Source: a virus
Virus record (IMG/VR): IMGVR_UViG_3300018719_000009
Span: 1-39,407 of that record
Direction: 5' to 3' (one strand)
DNA: 39,407 nt
Below are positions 748-36,274 of this stretch, in pieces (within the stretch, counting starts at the first letter, position 1; the number at the start of each line of letters is the position of its first letter). The translations under genes and the position numbers were made by a program. The notes beneath the pieces were generated by a model. It was not told the origin of the DNA. It worked only from the letters and a program-made list of their open reading frames with translations, and searched no databases.

Positions 748-987
748 CTAATCGAGCGCGCCGGACCGTCGGATGATCGGCGCGTATGGCTTGTCGCTCT
801 TGGCGAGGTTGCACCGCAGACAGGCCGGAGCCAAGTTGCTCACGTCGTCGGTGCCGCCGCGTGCGATGGGCACGATGTGGTCGATGCTGTCGGCGCCGGG
901 TTGTCCGCAGATCCAGCAGATGTCTGATGCGTTGAGGATGCGGGCGCGGAGGGTGCGCCATTGGCGGCCGCGGACGGGGCGTGGCAT
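748..987 (-). CDS. HNH endonuclease
   Basis: A compact 79-residue HNH nuclease. It carries CWICG at about residues 24-28, DHIVPIARGG (the first HNH histidine) at about 36-45, then N and CLRC at about 50-59. Its ATG overlaps the stop of the fibre gene (TGATG), so the two are translationally coupled. In HK97-type siphoviruses an HNH gene lies directly upstream of terminase and is needed for cos cleavage and packaging. Here terminase lies at the other end of the window, so joining the ends restores that order. The family call is firm; the packaging role is inferred from position. Confidence 0.87.
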   Translation of the reverse strand: MPRPVRGRQWRTLRARILNASDICWICGQPGADSIDHIVPIARGGTDDVSNLAPACLRCNLAKSDKPYAPIIRRSGALD

Positions 988-2531
988 CAGAACGCGATGT
1001 CGAAACGGACTGCCGAGGTCGTACCGCCGGTGGCTGGGTGCGTTGTGGGCCAGGAGTTCGAACCGAGGGTCTGTGCGCCTACATACCAGCTAGCGGCGGC
1101 GCTGCTGCTCGAAGGGGCCGCGGAAAGCGGTATCCCACCGCCGCCGTTGATGCAGCGGAGGGCTGGACTGCCTGCACCGTTGATCGACGCGACCAGGCAG
1201 TAGGCGCCTGCGGGGATGGCCCCGCCGGGGGCCACTGTCTTGGTGCCTGTTGTGCTGACGTCGACGCTGCCTAAGTCGCGGACCAGTGTTGTGGGGTAGG
1301 CGGTGTCGGGGTCGGCGTTGTACAACGCCAGGCGCAAGGCGGTGCTCGCGGCAGCGGTGGACACGTTCACACCGATGGACGCGGGTGTAACGCTTCCCTT
1401 GAAGTAGACGGGAGTGGTTCTGAATTCGCCTGAGCCCATTGTGACGGTGGCGGCGGTTCCTTGTCCGGGTGCGATGTACCAGGCGCTGGTCCGTGGCACG
1501 GAGGGGATGACGGTGAACCCGGGTCCGATGGATGATCCACCGGAGCCGCTGGGTCCGACCAGGGATCGTCCTCCGGGCCATGCCCCGGCGGCTTTGGGTC
1601 CGTAGATGATGCCGGCGGCGGTGTCCATGGCATATTCGCCGTCGCGGCCGAGGGCGTTGTTCGGGGCGCCGGTAGTGGCGAGGACTGAGAGGCCGTCAGC
1701 TCCGGGTTGCCCGGGGGCTCCGTCTTGCCCTTGCAGGGACGCGAGCCATGCGGCTTGGGTTCCTGCGTAGCCGTTGGCGACGGCGACTTGGTAGGCGCTT
1801 GCGCCGTCTTGGCCGTTCTGACCGGGGGCGCCGTTCTGCCCGTCGGTGCCGTCTTGGCCGGGTTCGCCGGCGGGGCCGCGGAGGGACAAGAGCCATGCGG
1901 CTTCGGTGCCGCTGAATCCGTGGGTGACGGCGATGTCGTAGGCGGAGGCTCCTGCGGGTCCTTGTTCGCCTGTTCCGCCGGTGCCACCGCCGCCGGTGCC
2001 GTCGGCGCCTGGGGGGCCGACGAGGCTGTCGAGCCATTGACTGAGGGTGCCGGTGAATCCTTGCTGTACGGCGAGGTCGTAGGCGGACGCTCCGGGCTGT
2101 CCTGGGGTGCCTGGGGCTCCGTTGGTGCCGTTGGTGCCGGGTTGGCCGGGTTCCCCGCGGAGGCTGGCGAGCCATGCGGTGACGGTGCCGTTGTAGCCGT
2201 TGTCGACGGCGAGCTGGTAGGCGGAGCGGCCGGGTTGGCCGTCCTGCCCGGGTTCACCGCGGAGGCTGTTGAGCCAGTCGGTGACGGTGCCGCTGTAACC
2301 GGCGTCGACGGCGATGGCGTACGCGGATCGGCCTGGGGTACCGGGTTCGCCTTGGGGGCCGTTGCGGAGGGAGTTGAGCCACTCGGCTTCGGTGCCGTCG
2401 AACCCGTTGGTGACGGCTAGGTCGTAGGCGCTGGGTCCTGGGCCGCCGGGTGGCCCAGGGCGGCCACCGCCGGAGACAACGCGGACGACCCGTTCGCCGG
2501 TGCTTTTCACGACGACTGTGGCGCTAGGCAA
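987..2531 (-). CDS. Collagen-like tail fibre / receptor-binding protein
   Basis: The 514-residue protein is built of Gly-X-Y collagen stretches alternating with six copies of a compact module (SAY..AV..G..GT....WL.SL) at about residues 34-55, 69-90, 103-124, 149-170, 196-217 and 245-266. From about residue 285 to the end it is a threonine/serine/glycine-rich beta-type domain, likely the receptor-binding tip. This is typical of trimeric phage fibres, in which collagen triplets form the shaft. The start used is TTG at 2529-2531, overlapping the stop of the upstream tail gene; no clear Shine-Dalgarno is seen, and GTG at 2510 is an alternative. The gene sits with other probable tail-tip genes, away from the main tail operon but next to it if the genome is circular. 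Confidence 0.8.
   Translation of the reverse strand: MPSATVVVKSTGERVVRVVSGGGRPGPPGGPGPSAYDLAVTNGFDGTEAEWLNSLRNGPQGEPGTPGRSAYAIAVDAGYSGTVTDWLNSLRGEPGQDGQPGRSAYQLAVDNGYNGTVTAWLASLRGEPGQPGTNGTNGAPGTPGQPGASAYDLAVQQGFTGTLSQWLDSLVGPPGADGTGGGGTGGTGEQGPAGASAYDIAVTHGFSGTEAAWLLSLRGPAGEPGQDGTDGQNGAPGQNGQDGASAYQVAVANGYAGTQAAWLASLQGQDGAPGQPGADGLSVLATTGAPNNALGRDGEYAMDTAAGIIYGPKAAGAWPGGRSLVGPSGSGGSSIGPGFTVIPSVPRTSAWYIAPGQGTAATVTMGSGEFRTTPVYFKGSVTPASIGVNVSTAAASTALRLALYNADPDTAYPTTLVRDLGSVDVSTTGTKTVAPGGAIPAGAYCLVASINGAGSPALRCINGGGGIPLSAAPSSSSAAASWYVGAQTLGSNSWPTTHPATGGTTSAVRFDIAF
1690..2435 (-). repeat. Six coding repeats with collagen-like spacers
   Basis: This DNA encodes six imperfect copies of a 22-residue module separated by 12 to 25 residues of Gly-X-Y sequence. 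At the DNA level the copies share blocks such as those encoding GEPGQ and SAY. Such repeats can change copy number by recombination, altering shaft length. Confidence 0.75.
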
Positions 2532-3141: not shown

Positions 3142-3214
3142 TAGCGCGGGTGGGACTCGAACCCACGACCCTCGGCTTATGAAACCGAGATGCTGCCAAC
3201 TGCACCACCGCGCT
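3142..3214 (-). tRNA. tRNA-Met (anticodon CAU)
   Basis: The minus strand folds into a full cloverleaf: seven-pair acceptor AGCGCGG/CCGCGCU, D-stem GUGC/GCAU, anticodon stem UCGGU/GCCGA with loop UUCAUAA (anticodon CAU), a five-base variable loop, and T-arm GUGGG-UUCGAGU-CCCAC. The A at 3142 is the discriminator; CCA is not encoded. The paired A1-U72 and the lack of three G-C pairs at the base of the anticodon stem argue against an initiator tRNA. An isoleucine tRNA with a modified CAU anticodon cannot be excluded. It lies at the head of the probable late operon, flanked by perfect 25-base repeats, which suggests acquisition by recombination. Confidence 0.95.
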
Positions 3215-4459: not shown

Positions 4460-5101
4460 TCACAAGGCCGCATTGGTCACCGCCGCCAGGAGATACGCGC
4501 CGATGTGTTCGGTGTAGGCGGGTGGGATGGCTTGGGACAGTTCGGCGCGGCTCATCCAGTCGATGCCCATCGCCGTCTTGGCCTCGTCAGGTTGGAATTT
4601 GTAGCCGCGGGTCATCTGCCCGGCGCCACCGGTGCCGTACACCCCGCCGACCGGTCGGCCGGTGCACCCGTCGGGTGGGGTCGTCACGGGAAACGTCGCC
4701 TCAAACAGGCGGTGCCGGCGCAGGACCCGCCCGGCGGCGCGCAGCCCGAACATCGACCCGCACAGCATGACGGGGTTGATGAGGGGCGCGCCGACGACGT
4801 TTTCGATGACGTACGGCTTCCCGGTTGCCTGGAGTGCGGCTCGGGTGGCGTCGACGAGGTCGACGTACTCGCCGCCGGTGCGGTGCCTGAGCGTCGAGTA
4901 CGCCTGGCATGGAGGTGAGGCGTGGATGGCGTCGAACTCCGCCCCGTGCGCGGCGAGGTAGTCGAGGGCGTCGGCCTGGTGGAAGGTGTGCGGGTAGCGG
5001 GGCATGGGTGCGAGGTCGACGCCGGTGACGGTGAATCCGGCGGCGGCGTACCCGGCTGATGCTCCGCCGGCGCCGCTGAACAGGTCGAGCAGCCTGATCA
5101 C
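4460..5101 (-). CDS. DNA C5-cytosine methyltransferase
   Basis: The 213-residue enzyme starts at GTG 5099-5101, overlapping the stop of the upstream gene (GTGA). Motif I is LLDLFSGAGGASAGY (residues 4-18, S-adenosylmethionine loop). Motif IV is SPPCQAYS, with the catalytic Cys65. Motif VI is the YVIENV segment at about 96-101. A C-terminal MGIDWMSRAELSQAIPPAYTEHIG block matches the end seen in compact phage enzymes (motifs IX-X). At 213 residues it is much shorter than bacterial enzymes and has almost no target recognition domain, as in many actinophage solo methyltransferases. No cognate restriction gene is nearby, so it probably protects phage DNA from host restriction. Confidence 0.9.
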   Translation of the reverse strand: MIRLLDLFSGAGGASAGYAAAGFTVTGVDLAPMPRYPHTFHQADALDYLAAHGAEFDAIHASPPCQAYSTLRHRTGGEYVDLVDATRAALQATGKPYVIENVVGAPLINPVMLCGSMFGLRAAGRVLRRHRLFEATFPVTTPPDGCTGRPVGGVYGTGGAGQMTRGYKFQPDEAKTAMGIDWMSRAELSQAIPPAYTEHIGAYLLAAVTNAAL

Positions 5102-5972
5102 AGGTCACCCGCCCCGGCGTCTTGTTCGTCGGTGCGGCAGGCGAATGGTGAGCAGCCGGTGATGTTGAAGTCGTCGTCTTCGTCGGCGAGGACGTCGAGC
5201 AGGTCAACTTCCGCGACCAGCAGCCCGCCGAATGGGCCCAGGCAGTCGCATTCGACGAAGCGATACGCCACAACCGCCCAGGGGTGCAGCAGTACGTCCA
5301 CCGATCCCTCAAGCCGCTCGCAGAGGCGCACATCGACCGGGCCACCCGCGCCGAATACCAAGACCGGCAAATATAGCGCCATTGCCTGTTGCGGTGGAAC
5401 GGGCACGCGACGCACGCGCTCTTCGGTGTGGCGCCCCAACCGGTCCGGTCGAGGTAACGGACGCAGTCTTTGCGGGTCCACCCGAGTTCGAGTAGTGGGA
5501 ACACGTTGCGGGTGTAGTTGACGTCGGACTCCTTGGCGCGGTCGGCCTCGTCGGCGCTGATCCCGATGGCCTGCTCGGCGTACACACCGCGCGGTACGGG
5601 TGTGGGGTGGGGGTAGCCGAGGAATTCCCGCACCTTCGTCTTAAGGGGGCGCAGCTTGAACTGGTGGGTGCATTGCCGACGGCCCATCCCGCTGGTGCCG
5701 TCGGCGTTTTTCACGTACAGCGGAATGGAGGTAAATCGACCCGCGGGGGCGTCGTCGCGGAGGTTGCCTTGGGAGACGCGGTGGATGGGGATGCGGACGG
5801 CTTGTTCGAGCCGGGTGAGGTGGTTGTAGACCTCTTGGGGTTCCCAGCCGGTGTCGGCGAATATCGCGGCGTCGTAGCGGCCGATGCGGCCTTCGTCGGC
5901 GAGGAGGAGGAGGGTGGTGGATTGGACGCCTGCGCCGAGGCTGAGGAGTCGGAGGGTCGGCCGGTCGGTCAC
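5098..5972 (-). pseudogene. PAPS-reductase-like gene with internal inversion
   Basis: The N-terminal 200 residues (GTG at 5970-5972) are a clear PP-loop / phosphoadenosine-phosphosulfate-reductase-like domain: SLGAGVQSTT (residues 11-20), FADTGWEP, GRRQCTHQFK (about 98-106), ELGWTRKDC and the CVACPFHRNRQW block. Then the reading breaks. The missing 53 codons are found on the opposite strand at 5212-5370. The C-terminal tail (EVDLLDVLADED..., ending GCSPFACRTDEQ) follows on the minus strand at 5098-5211. As written, the minus frame stays open but reads nonsense past 5371, running into the methyltransferase gene. The restored protein would have about 291 residues. These proteins occur in phages beside DNA-modification genes. 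In this copy it is presumably inactive, unless the block can flip. Confidence 0.85.
5212..5370 (+). other. Inverted internal gene segment (53 codons)
   Basis: Read on the plus strand, this block encodes RDQQPAEWAQAVAF, then DEAIRH, YVHRSLKPLAEAHID and ATRAEYQDRQ. That is the expected middle of the minus-strand PAPS-reductase-like protein, between its CPFHRNRQWRYI and VDLLDVLADED parts. The length is an exact multiple of three. Restoring the orientation mends the gene except for one missing base at the 5370/5371 junction. No long inverted repeats flank it; only a weak CAGG(T)CAA / TTGCCTG pair lies outside, at 5200-5207 and 5382-5388. Confidence 0.88.
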
Positions 5973-6682
5973 GCGACGTCCCCCACGGTCTGCTCGTCGA
6001 CCAGCAACAGGTGCCACGTCTCACGGGCCCACCGCGGCCTTCTCCCGCCTTCATCGACGCAGCCGTGGGTGGCGCAGGTGACGTCGCTGGAGGCGTCTGA
6101 GCGGACGCGGAGCGGCCCGCCGCAGTACCGGCAGGCGACGTCCCTGAGCGTCGCCAGGGGCGCCTCGTAGGCGAGCGCTTCCCGGCACGCGGCGACGTAC
6201 AGGCCGGTGACCCGGGCGACCTCAACGCGGTGGTCCTCGCCCAGGGCGTGGGCGAGTCCGCGGATGTCGTGGAGGGCGGTGGTCAGCCCGACGCGGGTAC
6301 GTGGGGTATCCGGTGTCTGTCGGCCGGCGGCGCGGCGCAGGTACCTGCGCAGCTCCCACACCCCAGGGGTGTAGTCATGCCGGGTGGCCCACCCGTTCAC
6401 GACCCGGTCGAACGCGGCGGTGGCGGGGGCGTACGACGGTGGGCGGCTGCGTGGCTTCCCCCGCGACGTCGGCTCGGCGCCGGCGACCGCACCAGGGGGC
6501 ATCGCCTCGATCAGCGCCAAGAGCAGCGGAGGTTGGCGTACGGCGTGCCGGCCGTGTTCGGGTGAGCGGCGGTGAATCCCATCTGCTCCCGTGCCGGGCT
6601 GGCGGGTGTATTCGACGGACGTGGTTTGCGCGCGGGTGAGCTGGTCGACATTGTCCGCGATTTGCTGGAGGACGTCTTTCAC
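5969..6682 (-). CDS. Protein with C-terminal zinc ribbon, unknown function
   Basis: 237 residues from GTG 6680-6682, with its stop overlapping the start of the PAPS-reductase-like gene (GTGA). The N-terminus is helical (VKDVLQQIADNVDQLTR). The centre, with VVNGWATRHDYTPGVWELRRYLRRAAG, looks like a helical DNA- or protein-binding region. The C-terminus carries CRYCGGPLRVRS...CATHGC, a CxxC...CxxxxC zinc ribbon at about residues 194-217. Similar proteins with a central helical part and a terminal zinc ribbon recur in actinophage early operons. No biochemical role is known to me. Confidence 0.65.
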   Translation of the reverse strand: MKDVLQQIADNVDQLTRAQTTSVEYTRQPGTGADGIHRRSPEHGRHAVRQPPLLLALIEAMPPGAVAGAEPTSRGKPRSRPPSYAPATAAFDRVVNGWATRHDYTPGVWELRRYLRRAAGRQTPDTPRTRVGLTTALHDIRGLAHALGEDHRVEVARVTGLYVAACREALAYEAPLATLRDVACRYCGGPLRVRSDASSDVTCATHGCVDEGGRRPRWARETWHLLLVDEQTVGDVA

Positions 6683-6792
6683 AGGAGGTCGCCTTTCACC
6701 TTCACCGTTTCGACCGGGCGGTATTCGCCATCGTCCCAGTCCTCGAAGTCCATTTCGCAGTACAGGCACGGTTCAGCACGGCGGTCGGTCAT
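6679..6792 (-). CDS. Small CxxC protein (37 aa)
   Basis: The ATG at 6790-6792 has an ideal GAGGAGG site. The product contains one CLYC pair and many acidic residues (EMDFEDWDDGEY). Its stop overlaps the GTG of the next gene. The longer frame upstream of this ATG lacks a ribosome site and coding character. Its function is unknown. Confidence 0.6.
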   Translation of the reverse strand: MTDRRAEPCLYCEMDFEDWDDGEYRPVETVKVKGDLL

Positions 6793-9456: not shown

Positions 9457-9620
9457 ACCGCACCGACCGGCGGCAGAGGCGTCACGGTGACGAAGCGACC
9501 GCCGTCGACGAGGCGGGCACAGGGCAGGCAAACCCGAAAAGCACGCTGACCATCGCCGAAGTCGACCTCGTGCGTTGCCGCCCCGGGTCGGCTGCAGGCT
9601 TCGCAGCGCCGGGGGTTCAT
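9453..9620 (-). CDS. Small zinc-finger protein (55 aa)
   Basis: The ATG at 9618-9620 overlaps the preceding stop (ATGA), and its own stop overlaps the GTG of the primase-helicase. The product has CEACSRPG at residues 6-13 and CLPC at 31-34, a two-pair zinc-binding core around DFGDGQRAFRV. Such proteins are common in actinobacterial genomes. The role is probably nucleic-acid or protein binding; no specific function is known. Confidence 0.65.
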   Translation of the reverse strand: MNPRRCEACSRPGAATHEVDFGDGQRAFRVCLPCARLVDGGRFVTVTPLPPVGAV

Positions 9621-9943
9621 GCCGTCACCACCGCGACGAGCTGACGTGACCGCACCCTCGTGGTGGCCCTGCTGCCCTCGACGCGGATGAGTCCGCAGCG
9701 GAACTTGCCGTTGCGCCACAGTCCGACGACCCGTAGCGGCGAGCGCCACAAGCGAACCGCCACGGAGTCGACGACCATGCTCGGATTGCCGTACTGGTCG
9801 AGCGACGTTCCCCGGGCGAATGTCGTGGAGACTCGCCACCCGTTTGCCTCCGCCTCCGTGGCGAGGGATTGAGCGGTCTTCGGCGTCTCTTCCAGGCGCG
9901 CGGGGCGGCACGGTACTTCCGGGGCGGGGTGGAGCTGAAGCAT
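9617..9943 (-). CDS. Hypothetical protein (108 aa)
   Basis: The ATG at 9941-9943 has CAGGGAG nine bases upstream. The C-terminal half (SMVVDSVAVRLWRSPLRVVGLWRNGKFRCGLIRVEG) is rich in alternating hydrophobic residues and tryptophans, suggesting a small beta-barrel. The N-terminal half is helical (TPKTAQSLATEAEANGW). No family is recognised. It begins the coupled run into the primase-helicase gene. Confidence 0.55.
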   Translation of the reverse strand: MLQLHPAPEVPCRPARLEETPKTAQSLATEAEANGWRVSTTFARGTSLDQYGNPSMVVDSVAVRLWRSPLRVVGLWRNGKFRCGLIRVEGSRATTRVRSRQLVAVVTA

Positions 9944-11884: not shown

Positions 11885-12023
11885 GGGGCCAGTCCGTTTC
11901 CATGTGGGCGGGGCAGTGGGGGTCACCCGAGTCGCACGGTTCCCCGCAGATCTCTGCGGGTTCGGGGTCGACCCAGCGGCGTTCCGCGTAGACCTGCATC
12001 GGGCAGGGCGTCGGTTCGTTCAT
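11871..12023 (-). CDS. Small cysteine-containing protein (50 aa)
   Basis: The ATG at 12021-12023 overlaps the sigma-factor stop (ATGA). Cysteines occur at CPMQ, CGEPC and HCPAH, forming a probable zinc knuckle with DPEPAEICGEPCDSGDPHCPAHM. This C-x-E-P-C...H-C-P-A-H pattern is common in short actinobacterial proteins. Its function is unknown. Direct coupling to the sigma factor raises the possibility of a shared task. Confidence 0.58.
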   Translation of the reverse strand: MNEPTPCPMQVYAERRWVDPEPAEICGEPCDSGDPHCPAHMETDWPHDFD

Positions 12024-13024
12024 GCGATTCCCACCGGGGCCGGGCGGCCGACGCGCTGGTAGACGCGGGCGATGGTGCGGCCGGAGACACCGACGCGGCG
12101 GGGGATGTCGTGGATCGGGGAGCCGGTCTCGAGGAGCCAGTCGACGTCCTCGATGAGGTACCGGTACCGCTGTTCGCGGCTGACCTTGGAGTCCTCGACC
12201 ACCGCAGACGGTGTCTGGACGTGGTTGCGCAGCCATGCGTACGCCTCCGTCTTGAGTTGGGACACCCGCGACTGGGACAGCCCGAGCTCGCCCGCGAGGA
12301 GCTCGATGGGTTCCTCGCGGAGGCAGATTCGTTCGACGACCACGCGCAACCTGTCGGGTAGTTGCTCGACGGCGGCGAGCAGTTCCGCGTCCCGCTCAGC
12401 GTTGAGGAGTAGCTGCTCCGGCCCCGGCCGGGCATCAACGATGGTCTCCGTGAGTGCGTACCCGTCCTCGGATTCCACGTCGAGCCGCAGTGGTGCTACT
12501 AGCGCGCCGCTCGGCTCGGGGACCGTGCCGTCTTTGATGCGCCGCCGGTCCCCGCGGCTGAGCCAGTCCTGAGAGCGGAGCTCATCGAGGATCGCGCCCT
12601 GGACGCGGCGCTTGGCGTACGCGCCAAACGGCACTCCGCGGGCGGGTTCGAACCGGCGGGCACAGTTGATGAGGGCGGCCACACCGACGGAGATGAGGTC
12701 TTCCTTGTCGACGTGGCGCGGCAGCCGCTTGAGTGTGATGGTCACTTCGCGGTCGACCATGCCCAGGTGCTCACGGATGAGCGCCTCTTCACCGAGGGCC
12801 GCGGCGGGCGCTTCGGTGGTGAGATGTGCGGGGTTGATGCAGTCGTGGCTGCGGCAGGTGGAGTGGGCCGGTGCAGTCCCTGCGGCGAGCTGCTGCAGGT
12901 CGATCTGCCGCCCCTGGTGGGTGAGGACTGGCCGGCCTCGCTGGTCGCGTGGCCCGGCCCACTCCCAGCACAGGTCGGGTCCGAGCCTCTTCGCGCTCAC
13001 TTCCCATGGCATGGCGATGCTCAC
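12020..13024 (-). CDS. Sigma factor with HNH-like and extra HTH domains
   Basis: 334 residues from GTG 13022-13024. Residues 19-68 form an HNH-like zinc module: CWEW, then H54, C57, C62, N64 and H67 in HSTCRSHDCINPAHL. Residues about 105-155 match sigma region 2 of the FliA/SigF group (EDLISVGVAALINCARRFEP...FGAYAKRRVQGAILDELR). Residues about 215-268 match region 4, with helix-turn-helix IELLAGELGLSQSRVSQLKTE. Region 3 is absent or very short. The C-terminus adds a second helix-turn-helix (IHDIPRRVGVSGRTIARVYQRVG, about 304-326) like that of resolvases. The protein probably directs host RNA polymerase to phage promoters, perhaps late ones. The Shine-Dalgarno is distant (AAGGA). An IS element lies just upstream. 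Confidence 0.82.
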   Translation of the reverse strand: MSIAMPWEVSAKRLGPDLCWEWAGPRDQRGRPVLTHQGRQIDLQQLAAGTAPAHSTCRSHDCINPAHLTTEAPAAALGEEALIREHLGMVDREVTITLKRLPRHVDKEDLISVGVAALINCARRFEPARGVPFGAYAKRRVQGAILDELRSQDWLSRGDRRRIKDGTVPEPSGALVAPLRLDVESEDGYALTETIVDARPGPEQLLLNAERDAELLAAVEQLPDRLRVVVERICLREEPIELLAGELGLSQSRVSQLKTEAYAWLRNHVQTPSAVVEDSKVSREQRYRYLIEDVDWLLETGSPIHDIPRRVGVSGRTIARVYQRVGRPAPVGIA

Positions 13025-13089
13025 TGGTGCACCATCCTTCGGTCGGCGGTTCCGGATGGGCTGCTGATGCACCCCTGGTCCCCACCGGG

Positions 13090-13269
13090 CCATCGCCAGC
13101 GATGTTCGACTTCCGAGGTCCAGCATGAGTTCCGCGAGGCCCGGTGGCCCAGGACACCCAGACCGGCTACAGGGCTGTGCGCCGGAGAGCGCCGATCAGT
13201 GAGCGACCGGCTGCGGGGTCCCGGGACCACCGGGTGGCTTCCCACTGCTGCCACAGTCAGGAAACCAAC
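13090..13269 (+). ncRNA. Candidate IS110 bridge RNA region
   Basis: About 180 bases lie upstream of the transposase, with no convincing gene on either strand. They include a 12-base palindrome GGTCCCGGGACC at 13217-13228 and several GC-rich inverted repeats. In IS110-group elements the left non-coding end encodes a bridge RNA that guides the recombinase to donor and target. Position and size fit, but the fold was not computed. Bounds are approximate. Confidence 0.45.
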
Positions 13270-14508
13270 ATGAGTGTTCCCCTCCAGGACACTGCGCGTG
13301 TCTGCGCGGGTGTCGATTGGGCCAAAGACGACCACGCGGTCTGCATCGTCGACACCGATGGCGAGGTGTTGGACCGCTTCACCGTTGACCACAGCGCAGC
13401 CGGTTTGAAACGGCTCGTTCATCGGCTGCTGGCCGCTGGTGTGAGCGAGGTCGGCATCGAACGCGGGGACGGCCCGGTCGTCGAGGCGTTGCTGGCCGCC
13501 GAACTGATGGTGTTCGTGATCGCCCCGAACCAGTTGAAGAATCTGCGTTCCCGGTACGGGGCGGCCGGCAACAAAGACGACCGGTACGACGCCTACGTCC
13601 TCGCCGATGTCGTGCGCACCGACCGGCGTCGCCTGACCGCGCTCACCCGCTCGACCCCGGCCACCATCGCGTTGCGCACGAGCGTGCGTGCCCGCCGCGA
13701 CCTGGTCGAACACCGGGTCGCCGCAGCCAACCAGCTGCGCGCCCACCTGCAAATCGTCTTCCCCGGTGCCGTGGGACTGTTCGCAGCTATCGACTCCGCA
13801 GTCAGCCTGGCGTTCCTGGAACGGTTTCCCACCCAGACCAAAGCCGACTGGCTCACTCCCGCCCGCCTGGGCACTTGGCTGGGCAAGGTCGGCTACTCCG
13901 GCCACGTCGCACCCGAGGTACTGCAGCAACGGCTGACCGCTGCCCCACGAGGCACCACCAACACCGACGCCGACGCTCACGCCGCGGTGACTCTGGCGTT
14001 CATCGCCGTGCTGCGCAGCCTCAACACCCAGATCGCCGCTCTCGCCGAGTCCATCGCCGAGCAACTCCAGGTCCATCCCGACGCGCACATCGTGACCTCG
14101 CTGCCCCGAGCGGGCACCCTGCGTGCCGCCCGGCTGCTCGCCGAAATCGGTGACGCCCGCGGACGATTCCCCACCGCCGACTCCCTCGCCTGCCTGGCCG
14201 GCGTCGCGCCCTCGACCCGACAATCCGGCAAGACGAAAGCCGTCACCTTCCGATGGTCGGCGGACAAAGAACTCCGCGACGCCGTATGTGACTTCGCCGG
14301 AGACTGCCGACGAGCCAATCCCTGGGCTGAAGACCTCTACCAACGAGCTCGCGCCCGTGGCCACGACCATCCCCACGCCGTGCGCATCCTCGGCCGAGCC
14401 TGGGCAGACATCATCTGGAGATGCTGGCAAGACCGCGTCGCCTACAACCCCGACCGGCACAACGCTCTCCAACGCGTCCTCAGCAACCACGCCGCGAAAG
14501 CCGCCTGA
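13270..14508 (+). CDS. IS110-family transposase (DEDD recombinase)
   Basis: 412 residues from ATG 13270 with AGGAAA upstream. The N-terminal RuvC-like DEDD domain shows VCAGVDWAKDDH (Asp16), VGIERGDG (Glu64) and NKDDRYDAYVLAD (Asp103 and Asp107). A coiled linker follows. The C-terminal transposase_20 domain carries LPRAGTLRAARLLAEIGDARGRF and CLAGVAPSTRQSGKTK, with the probable catalytic serine at QSG (Ser319). Length matches the family and the frame is intact, so the element may still be active. It is transcribed against the early operon, and its antisense frame also stays open over most of its length. Confidence 0.93.
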   Translation: MSVPLQDTARVCAGVDWAKDDHAVCIVDTDGEVLDRFTVDHSAAGLKRLVHRLLAAGVSEVGIERGDGPVVEALLAAELMVFVIAPNQLKNLRSRYGAAGNKDDRYDAYVLADVVRTDRRRLTALTRSTPATIALRTSVRARRDLVEHRVAAANQLRAHLQIVFPGAVGLFAAIDSAVSLAFLERFPTQTKADWLTPARLGTWLGKVGYSGHVAPEVLQQRLTAAPRGTTNTDADAHAAVTLAFIAVLRSLNTQIAALAESIAEQLQVHPDAHIVTSLPRAGTLRAARLLAEIGDARGRFPTADSLACLAGVAPSTRQSGKTKAVTFRWSADKELRDAVCDFAGDCRRANPWAEDLYQRARARGHDHPHAVRILGRAWADIIWRCWQDRVAYNPDRHNALQRVLSNHAAKAA

Positions 14509-18414: not shown

Positions 18415-19434
18415 ATGAGCGCCACCCCGTACATCCCACCGATCCGACCCACCCAGGAGCGCGCGCTGCGTCCCATCGACGGCACTGGCGCAGCTGCGGA
18501 ACGCCGCCGGCAGCACAACTACTTCCTGATCCACCTGCGGGCGTCCACCACCCGCAAGGGCACCGACTTCAAAGAGAACGCGATCAACACCCACGACGAC
18601 GCTCTCATCGCGCTCGACAAGTGGCTGACGTCGATGGACTTCCCCGGCGACTACCGGGACGTGGACACCGCGACGCTCGGCGCGTTCCTGAAGTGGTGGT
18701 CGACCAACTACACCCAGGGTGGGGCGAACACGAAGCAGCGGAAGCTGTCGAAGTTCTTCCGGTGGCTGTCGGAGGAGTACGGCACCCCGAACCCCTACAC
18801 CGACAAGCTCGCGCGGTACGCACCGGCGAAGCCGGGAGCGAGCAAGAAGGTCCTCGATGATGAGGTGGTGCGGGGGATGTTGCGGGTGACCAGCGGCAAG
18901 GACTTCGAGTCGGTGCGTGACCACGCCATCATCCGGGTGCTCGTCGGATCGGGGATGCGCCGCGGGCAGTGCGCGTTCCTGCGCGTGGAGGACATCGACC
19001 TGCGTGGCCGCACCGCAACGGTGATCGGTCAGAAGGGATGGGACGACGGGCACCGCAAGCCGTTCGACAACAAGGCTGCTGAGGCGTTGGCGCGGTATCT
19101 GCGGATGCGGTCGGGGCACAAGCTGGCCGGCGGTGCGGAGTGGGGATGGTTGTGGCTGGGCACGCGGGGCCGGGGTCATCTGTCAGGTAACGCCATCCTG
19201 CAGATGCTCAAGCGCCGGGCGGAGCAGTCAGGGTTCGCCCGGTCGGCGGTGCACGCGCACATGTTCCGCCACACCTACGCCCATCACCACCTGGCGAGCG
19301 GCGGCTCCGAGACGGATCTGATGAATGTGATGTCGTGGAGTGACCCGGCGATGGTGCGGGTGTACGCGGCGGAGCTGGCGGAGCAGCGGGCGTTAGAAGA
19401 CGCCCGGCGGCGGTCGGTTGGTGGGCGGTACTGA
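18415..19434 (+). CDS. int: Tyrosine-family integrase
   Basis: 339 residues from ATG 18415 (GAGGAG upstream). An N-terminal core-binding SAM-like domain covers about residues 30-135. The catalytic domain carries LVGSGMRRGQCAFL (Arg182 in the first box), HAHMFRHTYAHHHL (His282, Arg285) and MSWSDPAMVRVYA with nucleophile Tyr317; tryptophan 308 replaces the usual second histidine. The glutamate usually found after the first arginine box is Gln185 here. The enzyme joins attP to a host tRNA site, and the adjacent tRNA 3' end fits this. Confidence 0.93.
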   Translation: MSATPYIPPIRPTQERALRPIDGTGAAAERRRQHNYFLIHLRASTTRKGTDFKENAINTHDDALIALDKWLTSMDFPGDYRDVDTATLGAFLKWWSTNYTQGGANTKQRKLSKFFRWLSEEYGTPNPYTDKLARYAPAKPGASKKVLDDEVVRGMLRVTSGKDFESVRDHAIIRVLVGSGMRRGQCAFLRVEDIDLRGRTATVIGQKGWDDGHRKPFDNKAAEALARYLRMRSGHKLAGGAEWGWLWLGTRGRGHLSGNAILQMLKRRAEQSGFARSAVHAHMFRHTYAHHHLASGGSETDLMNVMSWSDPAMVRVYAAELAEQRALEDARRRSVGGRY

Positions 19435-31620: not shown

Positions 31621-31663
31621 GGGGTGAGTGGGGTGAAGTCCGGGTCGGCGCGGCGCTCACCCC
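31621..31663 (-). terminator. Stem-loop between major tail protein and chaperone genes
   Basis: GGGGTGAG (31621-31628) pairs perfectly with CTCACCCC (31656-31663) around a 27-base loop, just after the major tail protein gene. No T run follows. It may weaken read-through or stabilise the 3' end of the abundant tail-protein message, lowering chaperone levels. Confidence 0.45.
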
Positions 31664-31691
31664 TGGCACCGCGCCAACCCGGTCAGGTGGG

Positions 31692-32252
31692 TTACGCGGG
31701 CAGCGCCCAGCCCTCGGAGAACAGGCGGCGGATCGACACACCGTCGGTGCCCGGGTACGCGGTGACGGTCAGCTCGTAGCCGACCATCTCGCCGCTGCTG
31801 TAGGTGATGTCACCGCGGCCGGTGACCTCCGCGCGGGGCAGGATGAACCGGCGCTGGTTCGCCCCGTCGAAGATGTCGAAGATGAACGCACGGGGGTCTG
31901 GCGCGTGGCGGGCCGCCTCTTCCAGGGTGACCACCCCAGCATTGGCGGTCATGCTCGCGGTGGGGGTCTGGTAGTAAAGGCTGATCACCGCGGCGGAGGA
32001 CTCCCAGCAGGTGAAGCTGAAGGTCTTCGTCGCACTGGTGATCTCGGTGCGGATCGGCTGGGTCGACTGCCACGGGGTGAACTCCGCGCGGTCCTCATCC
32101 CGGGCCTCGGTCAGGCCGTCCTCAGAGATGGCTCCGAGGTCAGTCCAGCCGGTGCCGGGGACGGCGAGTCCGGTGGGCAGCGTGGCGCCCAAGTTGGCAA
32201 CGAAGGCCGCGCCGGTGACTCCGACGCGGGCAAGAGCGGCGTTGATAGCCAC
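31692..32252 (-). CDS. Major tail protein
   Basis: 186 residues from GTG 32250-32252 (GGGAG upstream). It shows the fold and order of siphovirus tube proteins: ALPTGLAVPGTGWTDLGAISEDGLTE-type opening, RTEITSATKTFSFTCWESSAAVISLYY, FIFDIFDGANQRRFILPRAEVTGRGDITYSSGEMVGYELTVTAYPG. It polymerises into the tail tube around the tape measure. Position immediately upstream of the G/GT chaperones supports the call. Confidence 0.88.
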   Translation of the reverse strand: MAINAALARVGVTGAAFVANLGATLPTGLAVPGTGWTDLGAISEDGLTEARDEDRAEFTPWQSTQPIRTEITSATKTFSFTCWESSAAVISLYYQTPTASMTANAGVVTLEEAARHAPDPRAFIFDIFDGANQRRFILPRAEVTGRGDITYSSGEMVGYELTVTAYPGTDGVSIRRLFSEGWALPA

Positions 32253-35018: not shown

Positions 35019-35495
35019 CTAAAGGATCCCCGTCAGTGCCGCGGCGAACTGGTCCGCCGTCGACGTGCCCGGCGGGGTGCGCCGCCCCTGCGAGGGGTCG
35101 GGCTGTGGTTTGCGTGGTGCACCGGATTCGGCGAGGCGGGCAGCGAGACGCTTCGCCCGGTCCTCGATCTCATCCGCCGACCCCGACCCGAGGAGGTCGA
35201 GGTCGTTCATGTCGAGCCCATGTCTTAAGGCCGCCTCGACCCGCGCCAACTTCGACACCGCGTCATCACGCTCGCGCGCCGTTTCGGCGAGATCCGCTGA
35301 GATACGTTCGGTTTCGGTCATGTTGGCGTGCTTGAGACGGTCAAGTTCGACCTTGGCGGTCTTGTTCTCCTTGGCCCGCGCCTCCCACTTACGCGCTTCG
35401 GCCTGCCAGTCGGTGCCGCTTTCCGCTTCTACCGGCTCAGGCGCTGCATCGTTTGTGTCGGGGGTGGTGGCTTCGGATGACGTGGACTCGGTCAC
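35019..35495 (-). CDS. Capsid scaffolding protein
   Basis: 158 residues from GTG 35493-35495 (GGGAG site). The N-terminus is acidic and disordered (SSEATTPDTNDAAPEPVEAESG). A coiled coil follows (about 28-110: DWQAEARKWEARAKENKTAKVELDRLK...LAETARERDDAVSKLARVEAALRH). The C-terminus has a Pro/Arg linker and a short helix (TADQFAAALTGIL) that probably docks to the coat. It precedes the major capsid gene, as scaffolds do. Confidence 0.88.
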   Translation of the reverse strand: MTESTSSEATTPDTNDAAPEPVEAESGTDWQAEARKWEARAKENKTAKVELDRLKHANMTETERISADLAETARERDDAVSKLARVEAALRHGLDMNDLDLLGSGSADEIEDRAKRLAARLAESGAPRKPQPDPSQGRRTPPGTSTADQFAAALTGIL

Positions 35496-35545
35496 AGTGG
35501 GTCTCCCGTGCGGGACTGCGCAGCCGTGCGGCTACGGGTTGAACA

Positions 35546-35563
35546 CCCCACCGGATGGTGGGG
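35546..35563 (-). terminator. Small hairpin between MuF-like and scaffold genes
   Basis: CCCCACC-GGAT-GGTGGGG forms a seven-pair stem, followed on the minus strand by TGTTCAA. It lies just after the MuF-like gene stop. It may attenuate transcription or mark a processing site ahead of the highly expressed scaffold and capsid genes. Confidence 0.4.
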
Positions 35564-35569
35564 AAATCT

Positions 35570-36274
35570 TCAGCGGGCGCCGGTCTTCGCGCGCATCTCG
35601 GCCAAGATGGCCTTCGTCCCGCCACCGGCCTCAGCACGAGCGGCGGCGTAGTCGTCGGACCACTGCTGCACGTACGGCGCCTGCTCAAGGGGGGCGTCGT
35701 CCCACACCGGCACCGCCATGCAATGGCAATGATCGTGGTAGTCCTTCGTCGCAGTGGTTTCCGACCAGTACACGGCCCCGCGGGTGGCGAGCAACCGGCA
35801 GAACGCACACGCATTCGCTGACGCATGCCGCGCGAACCGAGCACCGGCGGGGTCGCGGCGGACATTGACCGTGACGGTGTCGCGGCTCCCGTTCGCCACT
35901 GTCCGCTGCAACCCGCCGGCGAGTTTCGACAACGCCACATCGGGGTCAGGAGACGCCCCGAACAGCGACCCAGCGGCCCACCTGGCGAGGACCTCACCAC
36001 GCTCGGGCCCTGGCGCTGACGCCGGCACAGCCCGGTAACGCCCCGGCGCCCCAGCCTCCTCGCGGAGGTCGTCATACCAGTCCGCGGCGACACCAGCCGC
36101 CGCCCCGGCGTACGCCGCCGTCAACTCCGGCATCACCCGGCTCAACGCCGCCGCTGCCGCCTTCGGCTGCGCCACGTCCAACGCCCGCCAGAACGCGAGC
36201 AAGTCCCGCATCGCCAACGCGACGAGGTCATTGATGGCACGGCGCTGGGCGTCAGCCTGCGCTTGCGTCGCCAC
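35570..36274 (-). CDS. MuF-like minor head protein
   Basis: 234 residues from GTG 36272-36274, overlapping the portal gene by 23 bases. The N-terminal half is helical. The C-terminal half carries ANACAFCRLLATRGAVYWSET...YHDHCHCMAVPVW, the CxxC...H..CHC signature of MuF/VG15-type minor head proteins found directly after portal genes in actinophages. Such proteins bind the portal and are carried in the head; some members are labelled capsid maturation protease, but no protease motif is visible here. Confidence 0.82.
   Translation of the reverse strand: MATQAQADAQRRAINDLVALAMRDLLAFWRALDVAQPKAAAAALSRVMPELTAAYAGAAAGVAADWYDDLREEAGAPGRYRAVPASAPGPERGEVLARWAAGSLFGASPDPDVALSKLAGGLQRTVANGSRDTVTVNVRRDPAGARFARHASANACAFCRLLATRGAVYWSETTATKDYHDHCHCMAVPVWDDAPLEQAPYVQQWSDDYAAARAEAGGGTKAILAEMRAKTGAR

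Follow-up and report, generated by a model that had tools for sequence, protein, structure and literature searches.

Organization of the locus

The stretch of DNA analysed here (to be referred to as the window) is the whole of record IMGVR_UViG_3300018719_000009, an IMG/VR-type virus contig of 39,407 bases from an uncultured virus. It is of the actinobacteriophage type, with 65–72% DNA identity to phages of Rhodococcus, Gordonia and Mycobacterium in the portal and capsid region. A gene on the minus strand (5972–5098) corresponds to a phage PAPS-reductase-like protein, phrog_424. It is flanked by a C5 cytosine methyltransferase-like gene downstream (4460–5101, minus strand; PF00145, E = 9.2e-6), which is intact as far as tested, and by a reading frame at 5969–6769.

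The N-terminal part of the PAPS-reductase-like gene (5373–5972, minus strand) comprises 200 codons. It has a GTG start at 5972, carries the PP-loop motif SLGAGVQS, and ends with CPFHRNRQWRY(I). In profile searches it matches phrog_424 with an E value of 1.5e-39 and PF01507 with an E value of 2.4e-5 (above the PF01507 cut-off), and its identity to actinobacterial homologues reaches 67%. The C-terminal part (5098–5208, VDLLDVLADED to GCSPFACR) is also on the minus strand, in a frame of its own. It contains the family-invariant Cys and has homologous tblastn matches at 5205–5110. Both parts read on the minus strand, as the earlier note on this DNA had described. Between them lies a block (5209–5372, with the codons certain for 5212–5370) that reads on the plus strand, from RDQQPAEW to EYQDRQ and with no stop, as the middle of the same protein.

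The middle of the gene is inverted

The earlier note had claimed that a 53-codon block of this gene is inverted, the expected middle being found on the plus strand only, and had proposed an alignment of related proteins to both strands. This alignment was carried out with 161 intact homologues from phages, viral contigs and bacterial genomes. Homologues in viral contigs were found with the alignment scan; scans with single proteins gave none. In tblastn comparisons with a 3-kb stretch around the gene, 153 of the 161 homologues have a plus-strand match in the block, with a best E value of 1.4e-13 and most commonly with the limits 5212–5370. The best matches place the N- and C-terminal parts on the minus strand on either side of it. 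The DNA of relatives gives the same picture: in all nine that match the block, it follows directly after the N-terminal part, and relative to that part its strand is the reverse of that in the window. Codon usage in the block comes closest to that of the phage in the plus-strand reading, and its sequence is present in a single copy in the record. At the level of sequence comparison, it is thus confirmed, well beyond chance, that the middle of the PAPS-reductase-like gene lies back to front.

The left breakpoint zone is at 5205–5213, from enumeration of the possible junctions and from DNA matches of the block, which start at 5207–5212. The right zone is at 5368–5376, from the same enumeration and from independent DNA matches in plasmid records, which begin at 5376–5377. 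The breakpoints define a segment of about 158–164 bp at best, so that the 159 bases given by the earlier note stand as a codon-level length and not as an exact distance between breakpoints.

Consequences for the gene product

The present open frame (4701–6017, minus strand) runs through the N-terminal part and the antisense of the block, and then continues out of frame over the neighboring methyltransferase gene, to 4701. The product lacks the invariant Asp, Arg and His residues of the block as well as the C-terminal cysteine motif. The inversion has broken the gene, and because of these losses we infer that its function is lost. An intact homologue was modelled with AlphaFold2 (pLDDT 85.7); the model has weak Foldseek matches (TM about 0.35–0.5), spread over PP-loop ATP pyrophosphatases and PAPS reductases, with GMP synthetase and LarE among the proteins matched. 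In this model the block covers the end of helix 197–206, helix 208–222 and strand 234–236, and the product of the window gene is now without this part of the fold.

The phrog_424 family accounts for all three pieces of the gene (N-terminal part, block and C-terminal part). The PP-loop motif and the profile match expected for phrog_424 and PF01507 are present in the N-terminal part, and the intact middle and the C-terminal cysteine motif are not found together in one frame. In contrast to the rest of the family, the window copy alone has an inverted middle, and its product is truncated and altered.

The inversion is unique and shows no decay

The earlier note had also proposed a search of related prophages for the uninverted gene. 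Among the matches listed, an inverted block occurs in 0 of 167 homologous loci, and the same loci entered the tblastn and conservation comparisons. Nearly all of them, again among the matches listed, can be read from end to end, and a single one carries a frameshift. The latter is in another viral contig (L039, 4001–4628), where the frame of the PAPS-reductase-like gene is lost beyond about residue 163, so that the gene is broken by an indel and not by an inversion.

The family has 11 block columns with at least 85% conservation, and the window agrees with every one of them. The ratio of block identity to N-terminal identity is 0.785, compared with a median of 0.82 for intact pairs, and 41 of the 161 intact genes have a lower ratio. 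Intact genes thus cover this value, and no decay of the block can be detected. Searches for close relatives of the phage with its primase and portal proteins gave loci of at most 65% identity, none of which has the PAPS-reductase-like gene in the stretch covered.

The two joins of the block

Conserved spacings in the family define how the two joins should read. At the first join, exactly two residues separate WR from R/K in 146 of 150 homologues. At the second, a single residue separates RQ from D in all 29 homologues that have this motif. If the center of an inversion is expressed as the sum of its end coordinates, junction enumeration gives 10581 for the first join and 10579 for the second, or 10582 with one extra residue. 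A conservative flip has only one center, and would therefore restore only one of the two frames. Restoring both needs different centers, so the event must have lost one base or gained two, and this net change (−1 or +2) is located at the right or the left junction. The earlier note had found the gene mended by flipping except for one base at the right junction; its arithmetic holds, in that the frame closes only with this net change.

There are no inverted repeats near the breakpoints beyond those expected by chance. Inverted matches within 30 nt reach 6 nt at most, which is the chance level given by 1000 random pairs, in agreement with the earlier statement that long inverted repeats are lacking. 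Within 12 nt the longest match is 4 nt, also at chance level, as are the inverted matches of 3–4 nt near the edges of the block. The joins contain neither a duplicated overlap nor Ns.

Origin of the inversion

With the plus frame open across it, the block could in principle be a gene in its own right on that strand, or a chance antisense reading. This reading has practically no probability, and is refuted by the alignment of 153 homologues, with E values down to 1e-13, which places the block at the missing middle of the minus-strand protein, and by the order in the DNA of relatives, where the block adjoins the N-terminal part. A phase-variable switch, the first reading offered in the earlier note, would have a site-specific recombinase flip the block, and this is very unlikely. 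The enzyme could be a serine invertase, the tyrosine integrase encoded at 18415–19434 or the IS110-family enzyme encoded at 13144–14508, and intact genes for the last two are present within the window. The earlier remark that no invertase gene is visible overlooked these two genes, but neither of the enzymes accounts for the joins. Bacterial intragenic invertons, reportedly described by Chanin et al. in Nature in 2024, are said to be flanked by repeats and to appear in both orientations in sequencing reads. They share with the window an inversion inside a coding frame, but flanking inverted repeats are absent here, conservative recombination cannot close both frames, and a second orientation is found in none of the 167 homologous loci, among the matches listed. 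A CT pair is present near both ends of the block (5208–5209 and 5375–5376), which we take to be a possible IS110-type core; a flip on this core was rejected, as it leaves an in-frame TAG stop at the second join. Inversions within genes by site-specific recombinases have been published for bacteria (Chanin et al., as cited in PMC11868660). In the window, the non-conservative joins and the missing inverted repeats argue against a classical switch, and as far as can be read from the DNA the joins argue against an invertase, a tyrosine recombinase and the IS110 enzyme of the window alike. The joins weigh against conservative recombinases in general. Formally, a recombinase inversion with a later, independent indel at one join could have given the same result, but no recognition repeats speak for it.

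A more serious competitor, though one we hold less probable than an event in the phage, is a chimera produced during DNA amplification or library making and then fixed in the low-coverage assembly of an uncultured virus. The record, an IMG/VR-type virus contig, would fit this, and a block without decay fits an event only as old as the library. To our knowledge, a block must be flanked by inverted repeats of at least k-mer length for a de Bruijn assembler to flip it. With a longest inverted match of 6 nt, the assembler would have had no repeat to flip on, and a mis-oriented short contig would have left a duplicated overlap or Ns at the joins. Chimeras of multiple displacement amplification (MDA) are predominantly inversions (85%), which mostly join at 2–21 nt of complementarity (PMC1855051). 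They share with the window the inverted joining of neighboring segments at little or no complementarity. However, they have one join and an intervening deletion, whereas the window has two joins, with the block in place and almost nothing lost.

The explanation that we favor, with some reserve, is that about 160 bp were inverted once and recently, in a non-homologous micro-inversion that broke the gene. Among the three readings of the earlier note, the best fit is the second, a gene-killing illegitimate inversion of recent date, given the lack of repeats, the non-conservative joins and the absence of decay. Two nearby breakpoints, about 160 bp apart, would have arisen in the phage gene, either as replication switched templates to the opposite strand and then back, or by end joining at two nearby breaks. 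The block would have been put back reversed, with one base lost or two gained on balance and the reading frame destroyed. Replacement of a segment in place by precise copying, as in template switching, is what the window displays, the block being intact apart from this net change. We infer both the route of the event and its occurrence in the phage rather than in the tube. On the other hand, it is uncommon for one event to produce two joins this close together. Human–chimpanzee micro-inversions, in which a segment is likewise replaced in place by its own reverse complement, have been attributed to template switching or break repair; they are 17–33 nt in length and all are flanked by inverted repeats of at least 3 nt (PMC8755829). 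These events are mostly clean, whereas that in the window is about 160 nt long, has a net base change and has repeats at chance level only. The biological comparison is therefore imperfect, as the human–chimpanzee cases are shorter and always flanked by repeats.

If the micro-inversion is real, it would show cleanly how a short inversion can break a phage gene in nature, and its length and freshness would allow the joins to be read; it would also warn that such genes escape annotation pipelines. If it is an artefact, it would be a defect in a public virus record. It is improbable that a real inversion of this repeat-less and non-conservative kind, caught early enough in a phage population for its flipped codons still to read perfectly, would mean that replication strand switching in phages can flip unusually long blocks, or that an imprecise recombinase (such as an IS110 enzyme) acts without inverted repeats. 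Either way there would be no new system, and the most likely meaning is an ordinary one, a gene-breaking accident or an artefact and not a switch.

Other features of the window

A codon-usage path through the window gives a few other short plus-strand stretches, at 9484–9632, 31662–31710 and 35475–35574. The last of these was rejected as a second inverted block, as the surrounding capsid genes are intact. Codon usage slightly favors the plus strand at 9484–9632, at the start of the primase gene, and neither a DNA match nor a homologue was found for this stretch. The IS110-family transposase (454 residues) is encoded on the plus strand, in surroundings of phage genes that are on the minus strand. 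Its gene is located between a RusA-like gene and the gene for a sigma-70-like factor with regions 2 and 4 (12020–13126, minus strand). A collagen-like, repeat-rich tail protein is encoded at 987–2531 (minus strand), and a tRNA gene at 3142–3214 (minus strand) is the only Rfam match in the window.
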